A stretch of DNA of 32,426 nt from Candidatus Dormiibacterota bacterium (GTDB lineage: Bacteria > Patescibacteriota > Saccharimonadia > UBA4664 > DATLOE01), in NCBI GenBank assembly GCA_035536395.1, contig DATLOE010000009.1, forward strand, positions 1 to 32,426, written 5' to 3'. A program made the translations under genes and the position numbers. Under the pieces are notes generated by a model. It was given only the letters and a program-made list of their open reading frames with translations. It searched no databases and was not told the DNA's origin. The stretch's first letter is position 1. Every line of letters starts with the position of its first letter. Positions 24,509-32,426 of the stretch are shown here, in pieces.

Positions 24509-24766
24509 TTAGCGGTCTTTCATTGGGCGGGCAATGTTTACGGTCAATTTTCTACCGTCAACTTCTGCGCCGTTCAATGCTTCAATCGCTTTGTTAGCGT
24601 CTTCTTCGCTGGCTACGTCTACGAAACCGAATCCTTTGGATCGGTTGGTAGCGCGGTCGCGAATAACGTTAACCGACTCTACCGGTACAACTGCTTCAAA
24701 CGCTTCTTTTAGCTGCTCTTCAGTGGTGTCCCACGAAAGGCTGCCTACAAATAATCTGCTCGACAT
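24509..24766 (-). CDS. RNA-binding protein, single RRM domain
   Basis: 85 aa forming one complete RNA recognition motif and nothing else. RNP2 is LFVGSLSW (residues 5-12) and RNP1 is KGFGFVDV (44-51), with the RNA-stacking aromatics in place. It resembles the small RRM proteins of cyanobacteria and other bacteria (Rbp type), thought to bind mRNA and often cold-inducible; this is family knowledge. Its long, structured 5' leader (about 95 nt) fits post-transcriptional or autogenous control, which is inferred. A terminator follows. Confidence 0.92.
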   Translation of the reverse strand: MSSRLFVGSLSWDTTEEQLKEAFEAVVPVESVNVIRDRATNRSKGFGFVDVASEEDANKAIEALNGAEVDGRKLTVNIARPMKDR

Positions 24767-24903: not shown

Positions 24904-27900
24904 TTACGCTAACTCATCGCCGAACAGGCTGGCTTGCTCAAGTACTAATTTTGTTGCAATGGCCTGATTGTCTGGCGGGTAGCCAAATTCTCGGAGCAAT
25001 TTCTTTACTTCAACTCTTAATCTAGCCTGCGCACTCTCTCTTAAGCTCCAATCTACAGATACGTTTTTACGAACACGCTCTACTAAAAGCTTGGCTAGAT
25101 TGCGCAATTTTTCATCTCCCATTATCTCGTGGGCATTACCATGTGCTATAAGCGCGTCATAGAATGCTATTTCTGTCTCTCCTAGCCCGCTGCTTTCTTC
25201 GCTCTCAATTTCTGTGCGTACTTTTTTAGCAATCTCTATTAGCTCTTCTACCACCTGGGCTGCTTCAATTGTGCCGCTTTTGTAGCGCATTAATGTTTCT
25301 TCTAGCATTTCAAAGAAGCTATCCATTTTAACCTTATTGCGCTTAAATCGAACCTTAATCTTATCTTCCAGTAGTTTCTTTAATGTCATTGCAGCAAGGT
25401 TCTTGCGCTCCATGCTACGCATTTCTGCCAAAAACTCATCTGAGAGTATCGAAAGTTCAGGCTTTTCGAGTCCAGCCGCAGCAAAAATATCTACTACACC
25501 TATTGGGGCAATGGCCTTATCTACTATTTGACGAATTGCCAAGTGATAATCCTCGTCAGAGGGGCCACCGCGTGGGTCCCCAACCTTCTCAAGCCGCGCG
25601 TTGACGGCCTGGAAGAACGCTACCTCTTCACGTACTGTAATGGCGTCATCATGTGGCATGGCCAGCCCAAAAGCTTTTCCAAGTTCAACCACATGCCGCT
25701 TCAATCGTTTAGGGCCATCTTCTAACCCTGCAATATGCTCCTGAGCATCCAGGATGATCTGTAATTGCTCGTTGGTCTTTGCCTTGAAGTAGCGCTTGTA
25801 GTCAAAACCATGGAATAAGTCGCGCACCACTTCATACTTCTGCTTCATTATCGCAACCGCTTCAGTCTGATCGATAGTAGGTGTGCCTGTACCTCCGCCA
25901 GCGGTATAGTCGGCCAAAGCTTCACGCAAGGCTGATGCGACTCCTAGATAATCAACCACCAAGCCACCATCTTTGCCTGGGTATACCCTGTTTACTCGAG
26001 CAATTGCCTGCATCAAGTTGTGGCCTTGCAGAGGCTTATCGAGGTACATTGTATGCATATTGGGCACGTCGAAGCCCGTTAGCCACATGTCGCATACAAT
26101 AACCAACTTCATATCCGATTCAGGGTTCTTCATGCGTGCAGCGAGTAGGCGCAGCCTATCTTTACTGCGGATGTGCGGCTGCAGGGCTTGATCGTCAGAG
26201 GCAGAGCCAGTCATTACGGCCTTAATGAAGCCTTTATTATCAGAGTCGTTATGCCATTCCGGCCTTAAGGCTACAATTTTTTCATACAAGTCAGCTGCAA
26301 TCCGCCTACTCATGTTCACAATCATAGCTTTGCCATCGATTGCGCTCAGCCGCTCCTCAAAATGTCTTACGATATCTTCGGCTACTAACTGCAAGCGTTC
26401 ATTGTTACCTACAATTGCTTCTTTTTGGGTCCATTCAGCCTTCAGCTGATCTTGGCGTGATACCTCTTCTCCCTCCAGCAAGCCTTCTATCTCAGTATCC
26501 AGCCAGTGTTTGGTAGACTCATCCATTCCCAGGTCAATTAGGCGGCTTTCATAATAAATTGGCACAGTGGCTTTATCTTCTACGGCTTGCTGGATATCAT
26601 AGATGTCTACGTAATCACCAAATACCGCAGGTGTGGATCTATCGTCTCTTTCAAGAGGGGTGCCGGTAAAGCCAATATAGCTAGCAGATGGCAGCCCGTC
26701 ACGCATGTATTTAGCATAGCCATACACTAGCTGCGCATCGCTCTGGCGAATGCGTGCCTTTAACCCGTACTGACTGCGGTGAGCCTCGTCGGCAATCACG
26801 ATGATGTTGTTCCGATCACTTAGGACCGGCATCTTGTCATTGTCTTCGCCCGGCGCAAACTTTTGAATTGTCGTAAAGATCACGCCGCCAGACTCTCGGT
26901 TTAGCAGTTTGCGTAATTCCTTACGTGTATGTGCTTGTACTGGTTCTTGGCGCAATATGTCTTGGCAGGCTGCAAAAGTATCAAATAGCTGGCCATCCAG
27001 GTCATTTCTATCGGTTACGATTACAATAGTCGGATTCTTTAGCTCCGCCGCCATCGCCAGCTTGCCGGCGTAAAACACCATAGAGAGCGATTTGCCAGAG
27101 CCTTGCGTATGCCATACCACTCCAGCCCGGTGGTCAGCTTCTGGCTTAGTAGCTTTGGTGGTGCTCGCTACGGCTTTTTGCACCGCCCAGTATTGGTGGT
27201 AAGCCGCCACTTTTTTTACAAAGCTACTGTCCGAGCGTTCAAACACAATGTAGTTCCGGCAGATGTCCAGCAGCCGGTCTTTGGCGCACATGCCACGAAG
27301 TGCGACTTCTAGCATGGGCACGTTTCCTGCTTCTTTTTCCCCATCGATTGTCTTCCAGGGCATAAAGCGCTCAAGGTTCGAGTTTATTGTGCCTACACCA
27401 GTGTCTATGCCGTCGCTAATTATGCATAGCTCATTGAATCTAAAGAGGGCTGGAATTTCATCTTTGTAGGTTTGAATCTGTCGATACGCCTTTTTGGTAT
27501 CTGCCTTAGCGTCTGCTACATTTTTTAGCTCAATGACCACTAGCGGTAATCCGTTTACAAATAGCACAATGTCTGGCCGGCGGTGATGATCACCCTGCTT
27601 TACGGTGAGCTGATTAACTGCTACAAACTCATTGTTATCAGGGTTTTCAAAGTCAAAGAGCCAAACCTTATCGGTACGGATTTCACCATCTTTATCACGA
27701 ACCTCCACATCTACACCATTAACTAGCAACTCGTGAAAATCTCTATTATCTAGCAGCAGTGTTGGTTCTTTACTGCGAATAATTTTTTTAATGGCTTCTT
27801 CGCGAGAATTAGCAGCGATGTTGGCGTTTATTCTAGCGACTGCTTCTTTAAGCCTGCGGCCTAGAACCGCATCAGTATACTCCCTTTCATTGGCTCTGTC

Positions 27901-27987
27901 TGGTTCAATGTCCGGCCCATGCAAAGTCTCCCAGCCAAGTTCACCCAGAATATCCATCATCGATTTCTCAATCTTATCTTCGTTCAT
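24904..27987 (-). CDS. hsdR: Type I restriction endonuclease, R subunit HsdR
   Basis: 1027 aa, the translocating and cutting subunit of a type I restriction system. The N-terminal nuclease domain has RRPDIVLF (D139) and LVVIELKN (E153, K155). The SF2 motor has Walker A HTQGSGKS (K299) and DEAH at 400-403 (VIADEAHRSQYG), followed by GFTGTPL. The C-terminal helical part is present, and the length fits the family, so the gene looks intact. The start is set by a 4-nt ATGA overlap with the upstream Shedu gene. It is the last gene of the defence operon; HsdM is not in the window. Confidence 0.96.
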   Translation of the reverse strand: MNEDKIEKSMMDILGELGWETLHGPDIEPDRANEREYTDAVLGRRLKEAVARINANIAANSREEAIKKIIRSKEPTLLLDNRDFHELLVNGVDVEVRDKDGEIRTDKVWLFDFENPDNNEFVAVNQLTVKQGDHHRRPDIVLFVNGLPLVVIELKNVADAKADTKKAYRQIQTYKDEIPALFRFNELCIISDGIDTGVGTINSNLERFMPWKTIDGEKEAGNVPMLEVALRGMCAKDRLLDICRNYIVFERSDSSFVKKVAAYHQYWAVQKAVASTTKATKPEADHRAGVVWHTQGSGKSLSMVFYAGKLAMAAELKNPTIVIVTDRNDLDGQLFDTFAACQDILRQEPVQAHTRKELRKLLNRESGGVIFTTIQKFAPGEDNDKMPVLSDRNNIIVIADEAHRSQYGLKARIRQSDAQLVYGYAKYMRDGLPSASYIGFTGTPLERDDRSTPAVFGDYVDIYDIQQAVEDKATVPIYYESRLIDLGMDESTKHWLDTEIEGLLEGEEVSRQDQLKAEWTQKEAIVGNNERLQLVAEDIVRHFEERLSAIDGKAMIVNMSRRIAADLYEKIVALRPEWHNDSDNKGFIKAVMTGSASDDQALQPHIRSKDRLRLLAARMKNPESDMKLVIVCDMWLTGFDVPNMHTMYLDKPLQGHNLMQAIARVNRVYPGKDGGLVVDYLGVASALREALADYTAGGGTGTPTIDQTEAVAIMKQKYEVVRDLFHGFDYKRYFKAKTNEQLQIILDAQEHIAGLEDGPKRLKRHVVELGKAFGLAMPHDDAITVREEVAFFQAVNARLEKVGDPRGGPSDEDYHLAIRQIVDKAIAPIGVVDIFAAAGLEKPELSILSDEFLAEMRSMERKNLAAMTLKKLLEDKIKVRFKRNKVKMDSFFEMLEETLMRYKSGTIEAAQVVEELIEIAKKVRTEIESEESSGLGETEIAFYDALIAHGNAHEIMGDEKLRNLAKLLVERVRKNVSVDWSLRESAQARLRVEVKKLLREFGYPPDNQAIATKLVLEQASLFGDELA

Positions 27988-29246
27988 TTATCCCTGCCTG
28001 TAATGATCTTTTTTAATCCTTTGAGCTTCATAAGAATTTCATCAAACGTTACAACCTCTACATCTTTACTGTTCGATCTCTGTAGTTCAAATGCCTTTTT
28101 ATTTTGCTTGTTCTTACCCTTCACGCTACCTGCGACAATCAAACATTTTGAGTTGTAGGTTTCAAATTCTTTATCAGCCTTTTTATTAAGCTCATAGTAC
28201 TCTTTCTGAAGATTATCCCTTTGGTCTAGCACCTGGTTGATTGCGCCGCTTAACTCTTTACTGATCGCAAAAACATCCTCACCTCGATAGGCGTGCTTCT
28301 TGAGCAGGGGTGTGTTATGTGTTTTTATTTCAATTATTGCAACGTTGTCAGTTAGAGAATTCTTATAAACAAAGTCGGCCACTTTCCCGTCTTTATTGTC
28401 TATAGATTTACCGCCAACGTACGCTTTGTCTTCAAAAAATAGTACTGCACTTGAAAATAATTGTGAAAATATCCAATTATATCTTTTAAAGAATTTTTGC
28501 CATCTCTCTTCGAGGCTTTGACTCTCATTTTTCTGCAGTGATATTTTCTCAAACTCCTCGATTACATTTTCAATATAAAACTTCTCAATTCTTTCCCGGG
28601 CCTGGAGCACTGCCCCTTCATTTGAAAGTAGTTCATCTTGATCTGTATCCCTGGTCAGTTCAAGTAATGCATTAACGTCTTTCCTGGAAAGGTCTGTTGC
28701 TTTAATACCACTCCTTACTACAAATCTGCTCAGCATATCTTCTTTGTATCTATTTACAGGTGGCTTAAAATCTCCCGGATACAGTCTGCCAAGAGAATCA
28801 ACTGCTTGAGCGTCTAATTCCTTGTTGTGACTTTCAATTAAAGATGAAAATTTCGGAAACTCTAAATCTAACTGTTTTGAGTTAATTTCGACCCTACCCC
28901 CTGATATTTTGTTTGTTATCTTGGGTCCAATAATTATTTCGTAATCTTTATTCTTTTTGCTCAGCGGCTTCACTAATCTCGATAATGTTTTGGTAAAACC
29001 ATATCCTCGCGACCAAGAGGAAAACCCCCTCGGTAGCTTGTCGGGCATACCTACAAAAACAATTCTTTTTACATCTTCATACTTCGGCTTTCCATTTCGA
29101 CCGAAAGGATAGAAGACGACTCTGTTTGTCTTTTTGAAAACTTCTTTCGATTTAATATTTAATTTATTTCGCTCATCGACGTAATGATAAACGGTTTTTG
29201 TGGCCAAGTCCTTTTCGACTCTTTCGTATGGTGGCTTAGGGTTCAT
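27984..29246 (-). CDS. sduA: Shedu-type anti-phage nuclease (SduA, DUF4263)
   Basis: 420 aa. The C-terminal half matches Shedu: ERWQKFFKRYNWIF at about 247-260, then the PD-(D/E)XK core with D291 in VADFVYK, E306-I-K308 in AIIEIKTH, and Q328 in GAINQVLDQRD, as in active members. The N-terminal half (about 1-240) is of the variable, sensor-like type (FYPFGRNGKPKYEDVKRIVF...) expected to detect infection. Shedu systems degrade or nick DNA and stop phage. Here the gene overlaps hsdS at its 5' end and hsdR at its 3' end by 4 nt each, so it is an integral operon member. It is visibly more AT-rich than the genes to the left. Confidence 0.88.
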   Translation of the reverse strand: MNPKPPYERVEKDLATKTVYHYVDERNKLNIKSKEVFKKTNRVVFYPFGRNGKPKYEDVKRIVFVGMPDKLPRGFSSWSRGYGFTKTLSRLVKPLSKKNKDYEIIIGPKITNKISGGRVEINSKQLDLEFPKFSSLIESHNKELDAQAVDSLGRLYPGDFKPPVNRYKEDMLSRFVVRSGIKATDLSRKDVNALLELTRDTDQDELLSNEGAVLQARERIEKFYIENVIEEFEKISLQKNESQSLEERWQKFFKRYNWIFSQLFSSAVLFFEDKAYVGGKSIDNKDGKVADFVYKNSLTDNVAIIEIKTHNTPLLKKHAYRGEDVFAISKELSGAINQVLDQRDNLQKEYYELNKKADKEFETYNSKCLIVAGSVKGKNKQNKKAFELQRSNSKDVEVVTFDEILMKLKGLKKIITGRDK

Positions 29247-30394
29247 ACTTTTATCTTTCCGGAGATTAATCGAGGCAAAAGCGAATCGCGAAGATTAGAA
29301 AGACCTCGTGTCTGAATCGAATTCTTAATCTGAAGTTCATGAAGTGGTCTAAATATTGCATCCAATGCTCGCAATTCTGCTTCACTTGGTACCGACACCT
29401 TGGCTTCTTTTAGATGGTGACGTTGGATATGTCCCATTGTTGTTGCTTTTCCGGCCGCTGTATCAATAAATCTCTTCAAATGGCGTTTCGTCCATAGATA
29501 ATAAAACCATTGCGGATATATTTCAGAGGTAACTTTGAATAAATGTTGATTAAGCGCTCCATCGCCATCGGTCCATATTTTTACAATAAGTGTGCCGGAC
29601 CATGAAAAAAGCATGTCCTCGTCGTTAACCAAGTATTTTTCTGGTATGTCAGTTGTGGCGCGGTCGGTGCTGTCGGTTATTCCAGTGGACATTTCGCGAA
29701 TTTTTATTACGGGCAGACTATTTACGGAATTGTCTGCAGGAAATTTTTGCATAGCAGCTCCGTTCAAAAATCCGGCAATCTCATCAAGGGATTTTTTGGG
29801 CCAGGTTTTGGCTTCTGGGTTGTCAATGAAGTAATGTTTAAATAACACTTGACCGATTTTCTCCAACGTCTGATTCATCTGCCGATTCGACTGCACTTTT
29901 TGGTCTATTTCGAAAAGAAAGTCACTTATTTTCTTTTGCTCTTCCAGGGAAGGTGCGATGATTTTCAAGTTTGAGAAAATTTTTGTTGTGAGACTCCCTC
30001 GAATACTTTCATTATCAGACAAGGCTCTCAACCTCTCATACATAGATGAAATGACATAAAATAAGAATTTATCATCTACAAATTTTGAATTTGGTCTCAA
30101 TTCTATTATTGATTGATTAATGTAAGTGTCGTTCATTAAATATGATGCTTGGCCTCTGGTTTTTCCTTGGCCTGCCGAAGCAATAACAGTACTTCCTCGC
30201 AATGCCTTTCTGGTGCTTGAATTGCGAACACCTTCTTCGGTAATAGTTTTTTCAGTTTTATAGATATACCTTTGACGAGTCTCCCCGGAGTTAAGCCAGG
30301 GTATGCCCCCTCCCCAAAATTTGGGATTTGAGGTTTGCGGTGTCCCACCACTGGTTATAGCTTCACAGATTTCACCAAGCAAAACCGTCTTCAT
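29243..30394 (-). CDS. hsdS: Type I restriction-modification specificity subunit HsdS
   Basis: About 383 aa, with two target recognition domains, each followed by a conserved helix. TRD1 is about 5-150 (LGEICEAITSGGTP, then PSLEEQKKISDFLFEIDQKVQSNRQMN, the central spacer) and TRD2 is about 190-340 (SLDEIAGFLNGAAM ... VPSEAELRALDAI). It chooses the DNA sequence for methylation and cutting. I place the start at 30394, which makes a TGATG overlap with the upstream stop and lies 8 nt after GGAG; ATG at 30397 and GTG at 30403 are alternatives. The first 16 nt of the gene are an exact copy of repeats at 30819 and 31235. Confidence 0.93.
   Translation of the reverse strand: MKTVLLGEICEAITSGGTPQTSNPKFWGGGIPWLNSGETRQRYIYKTEKTITEEGVRNSSTRKALRGSTVIASAGQGKTRGQASYLMNDTYINQSIIELRPNSKFVDDKFLFYVISSMYERLRALSDNESIRGSLTTKIFSNLKIIAPSLEEQKKISDFLFEIDQKVQSNRQMNQTLEKIGQVLFKHYFIDNPEAKTWPKKSLDEIAGFLNGAAMQKFPADNSVNSLPVIKIREMSTGITDSTDRATTDIPEKYLVNDEDMLFSWSGTLIVKIWTDGDGALNQHLFKVTSEIYPQWFYYLWTKRHLKRFIDTAAGKATTMGHIQRHHLKEAKVSVPSEAELRALDAIFRPLHELQIKNSIQTRGLSNLRDSLLPRLISGKIKV
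30379..30394 (-). repeat. Start-codon direct repeat, copy A (hsdS 5' end)
   Basis: ATGAAGACGGTTTTGC, identical to copies B and C. With B it shares 19 nt (ending CTTG); with C it shares 18 nt by extending one TG upstream (TGATGAAG...). It encodes MKTVL. Confidence 0.95.
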
Positions 30395-30834
30395 CATAGC
30401 CACTCCAGCTTTAGACCATCATTTTCTATAACGACCTGGCAGAGATATTTGTAATCCAGCTCATCACGCATTGCTTTCAAATCAGAATGATCATCACCTC
30501 GAGCTCTCCACTTTAATGCGATAACTAAAAGGTTATCGCTGTTATGCCCGCGATGATGAACAATAATATCCGGTCTTCTCTTTTTACCATGTAGTTGCTT
30601 GGGCACATGATCAGTTATCGCGTATACAGAGCTTTGCGAACCTTGCATGCGGTTATATTCACAGTCAATGTTGTATTCCGGAAAGTATTTTTCTAAATAT
30701 ACAGCTAACCTATGTGCTATAGTCCACTCACTAACGGTCTTTTCTAATAAAAATGTATCTTTAAACTCAACTTCTCTACTGGCTCTAGAGACAAACTCTT
30801 TAACTTTCGCATAATCAAGCAAAACCGTCTTCAT
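30394..30834 (-). CDS. PD-(D/E)XK-like protein with missing catalytic Glu
   Basis: 146 aa. The central RRPDIIVHHRGHNSDNLLVIALKW has the layout of a PD-(D/E)XK core (PDIIVHxRG ... LLVIExK), but at the E-x-K position the sequence is A-L-K: the glutamate is alanine. The N-terminal helix (FLLEKTVSEWTIAHRLAVYL) and the C-terminal strand-loop (YKYLCQVVIENDGLKLEW) match the small nuclease family I know of. This suggests a binding or regulatory pseudo-nuclease, or a relic. Its start is the MKTVLL repeat, 0 nt after the TAA of the upstream gene; its stop overlaps the hsdS start as TGATG. Confidence 0.65.
   Translation of the reverse strand: MKTVLLDYAKVKEFVSRASREVEFKDTFLLEKTVSEWTIAHRLAVYLEKYFPEYNIDCEYNRMQGSQSSVYAITDHVPKQLHGKKRRPDIIVHHRGHNSDNLLVIALKWRARGDDHSDLKAMRDELDYKYLCQVVIENDGLKLEWL
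30819..30834 (-). repeat. Start-codon direct repeat, copy B (dead-nuclease gene 5' end)
   Basis: Exact 16-nt copy ATGAAGACGGTTTTGC, abutting the TAA stop of the TM/zinc-ribbon gene. It is the start codon and first codons of the 146-aa gene. The identity to copy A continues for three further nt. Confidence 0.95.
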
Positions 30835-31221
30835 TTATATCATCCCGCTTTTCTTTAGAAGTTTTTGAAACTTCTTATTTTGCTCAATATATTTATCAGG
30901 ATTATCTGCATAGTACTGCGCACGCTCTTCGTAGTCGTTATTGTGGTTTCTGACTCCTCCGCAGCGTTGACATTGCCACTGCAACGTACCAGATGGAGAT
31001 TCGAATAATGACTTAAGTTGAAATTGGTTATTAGCTGATGGAGTCATCTCCATGTGGGTACAGGCATTCTTGAGCTTTTGTGCTAACTTCTTGTCTTTTC
31101 GTTCCAAATATTTATTAAAATCAAAACTAAGCGTAATCTTAACAGCAATAATTGATATGGCTGCAGCAAAAATAATGCCAATTATCTGCCAAAAACTTAA
31201 TCCAATATTTACGCTGTCCAT
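30835..31221 (-). CDS. Membrane-anchored protein with zinc-ribbon-like cysteines
   Basis: 128 aa: an N-terminal hydrophobic segment at about 9-28 (FWQIIGIIFAAAISIIAVKI), then a basic, helical stretch (KYLERKDKKLAQKLK). A soluble part contains C54-T-H and, later, WQCQRCGG, a CxxC knuckle; these four could bind zinc. The end is charged and helical (KYIEQNKKFQKLLKKSG). No family is recognised. The ATG is preceded by GGAG 9 nt upstream, contained in the 13-codon minigene. Confidence 0.65.
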   Translation of the reverse strand: MDSVNIGLSFWQIIGIIFAAAISIIAVKITLSFDFNKYLERKDKKLAQKLKNACTHMEMTPSANNQFQLKSLFESPSGTLQWQCQRCGGVRNHNNDYEERAQYYADNPDKYIEQNKKFQKLLKKSGMI

Positions 31222-31250
31222 GGTCTATCTCCACGCAAAACCGTCTTCAT
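31209..31250 (-). CDS. 13-codon minigene at repeat copy C, probably a remnant start
   Basis: ATG at 31250 follows the stop of the 284-aa gene as TGATG, then encodes MKTVLRGDRPWTA and TAA. Its first 16 nt are the direct repeat. It overlaps the ATG of the TM/zinc-ribbon gene (31221) out of frame and supplies that gene's SD. I read it as an orphaned 5' end, not a functional peptide gene, although translation coupling may help the downstream gene. Confidence 0.35.
   Translation of the reverse strand: MKTVLRGDRPWTA
31235..31250 (-). repeat. Start-codon direct repeat, copy C (minigene start)
   Basis: Third exact 16-nt copy ATGAAGACGGTTTTGC; the preceding TG is also shared with copy A. After it the sequence diverges to GTGGAGATAG. 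Confidence 0.95.
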
Positions 31251-32104
31251 CACAACAATCCTTCTAAGGCAAACGAACCATCATGCTTATAACACTTAGC
31301 CGTATCTTCACCGAAAGCATGTGAAATATCTTTGGCAATACTAAAAACAATCTCATCAATTTTTGTTTCTTTTGACACCGTGCGCTTTATCTGTAAATTA
31401 TGAGCAAATTTGTTAAGTGATGCTTTGCTGTTAAGGATATCGTACGGTTCCACCCATTTGTGATTGCCGTCAGGCCCTCCACCAAACCCACCAAGAGCAA
31501 AGCTCTTAACATTTCTCAGTGATAGAATAATTAAAGCATCTTCCGCGTATTGAAAGTTTTGATAGTATTGATCGGCTAAATTAAGTGTTAGCCAGATACG
31601 AATCATGATATGCCTAAGCATTAAGACTGGTTTATTGCTTCGTGTGAGGTAGGTTATGTCTCCTGATAAACCCCATTCTATATAGCCATTTGTTTGGAAT
31701 ACATGATATTGACGGTAATGATTCATATTTTCTCCACTACCTGAGATACGTGGATAAAGAACCCCATTTTGTATGAGTTGTTTTTCGTGCATCCAGATTA
31801 TCTCTGACCTGGGCAGGGGGTTCACTCCTCTTGAGTGTCGCTCTATCCATGCTTGAGCATTTTCGTCATGGAGGGGAACGAGATTGTCTTTAGGTTGACT
31901 TGGCACCACCGAGATAAGCGCAAGAGGAATTTTTGATTCCTCTTCAGGGTAACTAGGATTGATTAGTAGTTCAGACTGCGGGTTCAGGGCAAAACTTTCG
32001 GAGCTTGGGAGTAGCAAGTTTCGCTGCGCCAGTATTTGGTCAGTAGCTGGTAGTTGGCTGAGTGCGCTATATTGCTCGATGGCGCTATAGTCTATCTGGC
32101 TCAT
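31250..32104 (-). CDS. Uncharacterised defence-island protein, 284 aa
   Basis: Soluble, no signal peptide. The N-terminal region (about 1-130) is proline-containing (SYPEEESKIPLALISVVPSQP) and resembles linker sequence; the centre has NHYRQYHVFQTNGYIEWG, a phrase like the C-terminal parts of AlbA_2/Schlafen-type regulatory proteins, but too weak to assign. A Gly-rich run (ALGGFGGGPDGNHKW) follows, and the end is helical. It overlaps the upstream partial gene as ATGA and the downstream repeat as TGATG. No catalytic motif is visible; the function is unknown. Confidence 0.6.
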   Translation of the reverse strand: MSQIDYSAIEQYSALSQLPATDQILAQRNLLLPSSESFALNPQSELLINPSYPEEESKIPLALISVVPSQPKDNLVPLHDENAQAWIERHSRGVNPLPRSEIIWMHEKQLIQNGVLYPRISGSGENMNHYRQYHVFQTNGYIEWGLSGDITYLTRSNKPVLMLRHIMIRIWLTLNLADQYYQNFQYAEDALIILSLRNVKSFALGGFGGGPDGNHKWVEPYDILNSKASLNKFAHNLQIKRTVSKETKIDEIVFSIAKDISHAFGEDTAKCYKHDGSFALEGLL

Positions 32105-32426
32105 GAGTATTTCTCCTCAACGATATCGACTATTTTATTCCACAGAAGCTCAGTAAACTCCTGGGCAGTCAGTTCTTCATGTGAGCTACCCATAGTGAAT
32201 ATACTTAAGTCATGCATTTTAAATACGGCTTGTTCTTTTTCCCTGCTCCATTCAAAGTTACCCCAGGCATTAAAGCCACTTGGTGGTTGAGTTCCTCCCT
32301 CGGCTACAGATATGGCCAGACCTGAATCATTACCCATCGCCCCTGACTGAAAATCTAGGCTATAAACTAAATTACCGCGAACAAGCACTCTTAATCCCGG
32401 CTTTGCGCCCTGCCCTATGATGGTTA
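32101..32426 (-). CDS. Partial gene at window edge, unknown function
   Basis: The frame stays open to the right edge: codons upstream of the GTG at 32388 read TIIGQGAKPGLR, so the start is probably beyond the window. Visible part: RGNLVYSLDFQSGAMG, a Gly/Pro-rich stretch, then helical HEELTAQEFTELLWNKIVDIVEEKYS. No family is recognised. It is translationally coupled (ATGA) to the 284-aa gene, so the two probably work together. Confidence 0.55.
   Translation of the reverse strand, partial: TIIGQGAKPGLRVLVRGNLVYSLDFQSGAMGNDSGLAISVAEGGTQPPSGFNAWGNFEWSREKEQAVFKMHDLSIFTMGSSHEELTAQEFTELLWNKIVDIVEEKYS

Follow-up and report, generated by a model that had tools for sequence, protein, structure and literature searches.

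Why should the beginning of one gene be present three times in a row, at three successive junctions of the same operon? This question is raised by a type I hsd operon in the draft genome of a tiny epibiont-type bacterium (assembly of 0.64 Mb), found in a stretch of 32,426 nucleotides that was analysed as a whole and is called the window here. The three copies are termed A, B, and C, and the extra genes of the operon are called cargo. The visible operon has the following order:

32101 to 32424, minus strand: 5'-truncated open reading frame (ORF), 107 residues seen, first gene of the visible operon, running off the contig end, of no family
31250 to 32104, minus strand: gene of a 284-residue protein, family not recognised
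31209 to 31253, minus strand: copy A, read as an hsdS 5' stub and mini-ORF from its match to the hsdS-start profile and the reading of the junction
30835 to 31221, minus strand: 128-residue cargo gene, whose homologue adjoins hsdS in genus G076 (L050)
30816 to 30834, minus strand: copy B, a 19-nt hsdS start in in-frame fusion to the 146-residue gene (MKTVLL joined to DYAK...)
30394 to 30834, minus strand: 146-residue cargo gene, PD-Lambda-3_A-like and of PD-(D/E)XK type by profile match
29243 to 30397, minus strand: hsdS, 384 residues (MMKTVLLGEICEA...), with the probable ATG at 30397 and copy C (30379-30396) at its start
27984 to 29246, minus strand: Shedu SduA (DUF4263)-like cargo gene between hsdS and hsdR, ATGA-coupled to hsdS
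24904 to 27987, minus strand: hsdR, 1027 residues, ATGA-coupled to the Shedu-like gene

HsdR comprises the domains HSDR_N, SWI2_SNF2, and T1RH-like_C, meaning that helicase and nuclease domains are present, and HsdS is matched by Methylase_S (2.9e-36) and by PADLOC as Specificity_I. The hsdM gene was not found in the assembly. The contig ends inside the operon, at 32424-32426, upstream of the visible genes, and in the relatives that were found with HsdR the hsdM gene is placed upstream of the cargo. Searches for the 284-residue protein, which covered 393 class genomes, plasmids, and a scan of GTDB contigs, found no relative. Just past hsdR, on the same strand, lies a gene for a small RNA-recognition-motif protein (24509-24766).

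An earlier note on this DNA had reported a 16-mer, ATGAAGACGGTTTTGC, at 31235-31250 (A), 30819-30834 (B), and 30379-30394 (C) of the minus strand, and all three copies are indeed present and exact. The window contains no other match with up to three mismatches, and none of 100 dinucleotide shuffles of the window reached three matches. The genome-wide search for more copies, which the note had proposed, gave only these three as exact, the next best having one mismatch. Pairwise the identity goes further, A and C having 18 nt in common (TGATGAAGACGGTTTTGC) and B and C 19 nt (ATGAAGACGGTTTTGCTTG), so that the three copies are identical over 16-19 nt, including bases that are not common to other genera. 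The junctions are also as described before: the TGA stop of the 284-residue gene overlaps A, the TAA stop of the 128-residue gene abuts B, and the stop of the 146-residue gene overlaps C. A degenerate form of the 16-mer, searched in the 393 genomes of the class, has more than one match in this genome only, namely the three; elsewhere it matched single hsdS starts in G007, G060, G076, and G243, plus some unrelated places. Therefore, the 16-mer is not a common start signal, in agreement with the earlier note.

The identity of the repeat becomes evident from alignment with the hsdS genes of other genera. In ten of these hsdS starts with M-x-x-T-V-L-L-G-D or near it, encoded by DNA such as ATGACCCAGACTGTTTTGCTTGGAGAT, and it usually begins on the stop of the preceding gene with an ATGA overlap. 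The repeat is thus the 5' end of hsdS, as had been proposed. Based on the start pattern of the relatives and the ATGA overlap with the stop of the 146-residue gene, hsdS of the window probably begins with the ATG at 30397 and reads MMKTVLLGE. The repeat therefore does lie in the hsdS start, while the probable start codon is located three nucleotides upstream of the repeat's ATG, where it had been placed before. The six codons of TVLLGD are conserved also at the DNA level. At their silent sites the same codon is used in 75% compared to 27% expected among 11 genera (the window, 30397-30371, and L045, L047-L050, L052, L061, L064, L065, and L091), the highest value among 1,328 windows of six codons taken from hsdM, hsdR, and hsdS. 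Such conservation is what a recombination junction would show.

The assumption that each copy starts a gene is correct for B but not for A, because the 128-residue gene uses its own ATG at 31221 in another frame. What, then, is copy A? With a 27-nt profile, built from hsdS starts of other genera only, copy A scores 24.2 bits and the window's own hsdS 29.4 bits; the shuffle maximum is 16.7, and none of 1000 shuffles reaches A. The likeness of A to hsdS starts accordingly goes on to 27 nt (31253-31227, GTGATGAAGACGGTTTTGCGTGGAGAT), beyond the exact 16-bp core that had been seen. The codons are GTG ATG AAG ACG GTT TTG CGT GGA GAT, followed by AGA CCA TGG ACA GCG TAA. Given the match over 27 nt, copy A is a nine-codon stub from the beginning of an hsdS gene and not a gene start. 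It forms a mini-ORF of 14 residues and a stop, VMKTVLRGDRPWTA, with GTG/ATG at 31253/31250 and the stop at 31209, whose start overlaps the stop of the 284-residue gene (GTGA) and whose end lies 13 nt inside the 128-residue gene. Its GGAG is located 7 nt before the ATG of the 128-residue gene and may act as the Shine-Dalgarno sequence of this gene. After nucleotide 18 copy A diverges from C, and there it resembles other alleles: it carries GGAGAT as L050 and L065 do, and the present hsdS carries GGTGAA.

The genes that have been spliced in probably have an anti-virus function. The 128-residue protein has an N-terminal hydrophobic helix and conserved CxH/CxxC residues, and its homologue in G076, with 42% identity, lies directly before hsdS. 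The 146-residue protein resembles PD-Lambda-3 A in its profile match, which covers nearly the full length (8.6e-18), and differs from it in an hsdS-derived N-terminus, in the apparent loss of the ExK glutamate, and in that no partner B was found. Its relatives align only from about residue 6-8, and the residues before this point therefore derive from the beginning of hsdS; plasmid relatives show that the native N-terminus is different. The description of this protein as a dead nuclease agrees with a pairwise alignment read by eye, in which the E of the PD-(D/E)XK motif appears replaced, and the protein may thus be non-cleaving. It has no match in viral contigs and a match in one phage record. 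The product of the Shedu-like gene matches the SduA C-terminal domain (2.4e-25). In G108 (L045) the gene immediately downstream of hsdS has, as judged by eye, a C-terminal region that looks similar to that of the Shedu-like gene.

Where does the cargo enter? The operons of relatives contain variable cargo between hsdM and hsdS and also between hsdS and hsdR. In G080 and G251 a 160-residue gene and an ORF of about 30 codons (..EIKSL.LENI.LP..) directly precede hsdS. In G076 this pair is separated from hsdS by an ORF of 11 codons and then the 128-residue homologue, and in G137 by two other genes. The comparison of empty and occupied sites in related loci, which the earlier note had suggested, can thus be read from the gene orders, with the pair adjoining hsdS in G080 and G251 and the 128-residue homologue interposed in G076. 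Accordingly, genes are gained immediately upstream of hsdS, and the 128-residue gene is a natural neighbour of hsdS. Because the 128-residue gene lies directly before copy B in the window, B marks a former hsdS start. The claim that cargo has been added at the hsdS boundary is therefore borne out, at least twice. The source genome is the sole member of its family, and the genomes of G245 and G612, which are discussed below, are each the sole ones in their genera; a check for empty sites in sister species found no second operon-bearing genome in those groups.

The 160-residue protein is hydrophobic, and together with the ORF of about 30 codons (EIKSL.LENI.LP) it is found between hsdM and hsdS in four genera (L046, L049, L050, and L052). 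NCBIfam contains no match for the L050 protein, and the two genes are possibly a small defence or toxin-antitoxin pair. The 11-codon ORF before the 128-residue homologue of G076 (MIEVYLSGAKI and a stop) ranks 38th among 10,237 ATGs, which is suggestive only of an eroded stub. In two cyanobacterial plasmids (L112 and L113) small genes separate hsdS from hsdM as well as from hsdR, and in L113 they include VapC toxins on both sides. Thus, cargo flanking hsdS is not confined to the Patescibacteria.

If the copies are leftovers of hsdS, similar leftovers could be present in other operons. For about 46 hsdS ORFs, copies of the genes' own ends were searched within the operons, and stretches of 60 nt from the interior of these genes served as control. 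At a score of at least 16, five matches in four operons were obtained among roughly 90 hsdS ends, compared to one among roughly 700 interior 60-nt windows; L055, which contains a second partial hsdS, was left out of this count. Comparable stubs are present in three other genera, 5' stubs in G245 and G612 and 3' stubs in G245 and G108. In G612 (L096), which belongs to another class, the 5' stub MKTNWKETILAKIT with its stop separates two cargo genes and has its start on the stop of the upstream one, and hsdS itself begins with MKTSWQKTTLGNIST. The operon of G245 (L047) has stubs on both sides of hsdS. Its 3' stub, ending in LRETLLPRLISGKVKV and a stop and located 2.2 kb after hsdS, agrees in 39 of 42 nt with the end of its own hsdS, LRDTLLPRLISGKMKV and a stop, and was recovered independently by a protein-level search for C-terminal hsdS ends. 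Its 5' stub, ATGACCCAGACTGT, is short (14 nt) and the weaker of the two, its score being reached by two of 1000 shuffles. It is located 0.7 kb before hsdS and carries the GT of the consensus at a position that reads AC in the hsdS of this operon. The mini-ORF that it forms (MTQTVMSRGIA and a stop) joins two cargo genes by ATGA overlaps, its start lying on the stop of the upstream gene and its end on the start of the downstream gene. In G108, the nearest relative by HsdR (77%), a decayed 3' stub (24 of 28 nt) is found between two downstream cargo genes. Together, these leftovers in other genera suggest that the hsdS ends are a recurrent docking point for gene gain in the operon.

Recognisable stubs are absent from most of the cargo-bearing operons examined, and in 12 regions with plasmid type I operons no stubs were found at the hsdS genes. 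In G718 (L104, 8713-9123) the gene after hsdR, which encodes a nuclease-like protein of 136 residues, starts with ATGACTGAAACTG, the same 13 nt as the hsdS start of that operon; the match comprises 14 nt and is weak. Two further candidates were rejected as chance matches. One lies within a cargo gene, agrees with the hsdS start of G108 in 17 of 19 nt, and is out of frame and A-rich, and the other is an hsdS-like start with a high score in G338, which is near ribosomal protein genes and was picked by the pattern search itself.

How could such remnants have been generated? We hold it for somewhat more probable than all other readings taken together that each of the three copies is the 5' end of a gene that occupied the hsdS position in its turn, cargo and an hsdS allele having arrived as a block and left stubs behind. 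There would be three hsdS starts because extra genes have been spliced in repeatedly at this point. Recombination would bring in the cargo at the hsdS boundary, most likely in one block together with the hsdS allele of a related operon. The join would be located among the initial codons of the resident hsdS. This gene would be lost except for its 5' stub, and if the block also brought downstream cargo a 3' stub of the resident hsdS would stay as well. Copy A, the oldest, would be the stub of an hsdS that once followed the 284-residue gene, copy B, which now would provide the start codon of the 146-residue gene, the stub of an hsdS that once followed the 128-residue gene, and copy C the present hsdS. 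Those products would have survived that keep the ribosome hand-over along the operon. This could be accomplished either by a stub that is a mini-ORF, starting on the upstream stop and ending at or just past the downstream start (A and G245), or by a stub that serves as in-frame start of the new gene (B). We infer such a role of the stubs in translational coupling, which is documented for hsdM-hsdS of EcoKI (PMC3510504). The route was probably recombination via short homology at the hsdS ends after DNA uptake, and pili and competence genes have been reported to be prevalent in Patescibacteria (PMC12455944).

The earlier note had assumed that each insertion duplicates the hsdS start and leaves hsdS intact. 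This is not supported by the stubs, which often resemble other hsdS alleles more than they do the resident one (A, the 5' and 3' stubs of G245, and the G612 stub), a likeness that speaks for relics of former alleles and against newly formed target-site duplications. Neither is a fixed length of the duplication apparent, the lengths being about 27, 19, 14, and 42 nt, with A as a mini-ORF not belonging to the cargo gene and B as a fusion. Because the stubs look like other alleles and flank hsdS on both sides in G245, hsdS alleles would probably have been swapped in the same events in which cargo arrived, although the resident hsdS could also have been exchanged later and independently. The identity of A, B, and C over 16-19 nt is also compatible with a plain duplication of the resident start. 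A cassette-like process of integration or break repair, in which single genes are put just inside the hsdS start with 16-19 nt duplicated each time and the resident hsdS unchanged, would explain this identity together with the single gene per interval and the 128-residue homologue of G076 at exactly this boundary. We regard it as possible but doubtful, because the intervals contain neither a transposase nor terminal inverted repeats, the only match to a tyrosine recombinase in the genome is not nearby, the lengths of the duplications vary, the stubs elsewhere differ from the resident hsdS, and copy A departs from C after nucleotide 18 towards other alleles. An extended version, that the hsdS termini of Patescibacteria are a dedicated docking site at the DNA level, recognised by a recombination activity that loads single defence genes serially, so that the operon would be an integron-like collector with the gene order being the order of arrival, seems quite unlikely to us.

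Several hsdS genes per operon are known from other type I loci (PMC3874165), and L055 holds a second partial hsdS. The operon could be the relic of an array of several complete hsdS genes with cargo in between, of the kind known from phase-variable type I loci, in which all hsdS genes but one were later deleted to the first codons. Each deletion, however, would need to end within 14-45 nt of the start and keep the coupling. There are also no inverted hsdS copies and no local recombinase, the features of an invertible hsdS shufflon, and apart from L055 long 5' remnants were not seen in the roughly 57 hsdS ORFs scanned, which makes the array a decidedly unlikely origin. The use of B as a start, the Shine-Dalgarno-like GGAG that A offers 7 nt before the 128-residue gene, and the silent-site conservation could also mean that the hsdS start acts as a strong element for initiation or coupling. 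It would have been copied and retained ahead of new genes since it promotes their translation, being adaptive and not a scar. Such an element is absent, though, from the starts of other cargo genes in these operons, 3' stubs have no start function, and a mechanism of duplication would be needed anyway, so that we think this very improbable. Chance or an assembly artefact might be considered for a draft-genome contig that ends 1.2 kb from copy A. This is scarcely credible given that no shuffle out of 100 reproduced the copies, that they lie in different unique contexts, and that independent cases exist in other genomes.

With the block replacement at hsdS as the favoured reading, the locus can be compared to known systems. 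Campylobacter hsd loci with extra "rlo/mlo" genes are one example of genes embedded in type I operons. Another is prrC inside ecoprrI (PMC12707154, PMC3874165). The likeness to the ecoprrI/prrC-type loci consists in extra defence-type genes within an hsd operon, whereas in the present operon hsdS has several unrelated genes at its flanks, with remnants of hsdS ends at the junctions. No description of hsdS-end stubs at cargo junctions was found in the open-licence papers searched. Recombination at conserved parts of hsdS is known to diversify specificity (PMC3874165), and the exchange of hsdS alleles or TRDs and the multi-hsdS loci have this recombination in common with the present operon. In those cases crossovers happen within hsdS or rearrangements between hsdS genes, while the present direct repeats, which comprise the very beginning of hsdS, mark the addition of genes other than hsdS. 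With EcoKI the operon has the overlapping stops and starts in common; the difference is that here mini-ORFs derived from the hsdS start appear to bridge cargo genes in a putative coupling. As in integrons, single promoterless genes are arranged in series at a fixed point and are presumably expressed from the host operon. Unlike integron cassettes, however, the repeat here consists of the first coding nucleotides of a core gene, and the newest gene adjoins hsdS; nothing resembling attC-type inverted repeats was found at the copies, and there is no adjacent integrase, the single tyrosine recombinase match being on another contig. Compared to the target-site duplication of a transposon, the length is not constant (16, 18, and 19 nt exact, and 27 nt extended).

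Defence genes are known to cluster, yet it can rarely be seen how an operon with tight coupling takes up a new gene and stays functional. The hsdS-end stubs are a readable trace of this process, recording the position of the join, the order of arrival, and the probable turnover of hsdS alongside. If the pattern holds, the flanks of hsdS could be mined for uncharacterised defence genes, and the stubs can be used to order acquisitions. Whether hsdS exchange carries accessory defence genes between streamlined, DNA-importing bacteria would thus become testable.
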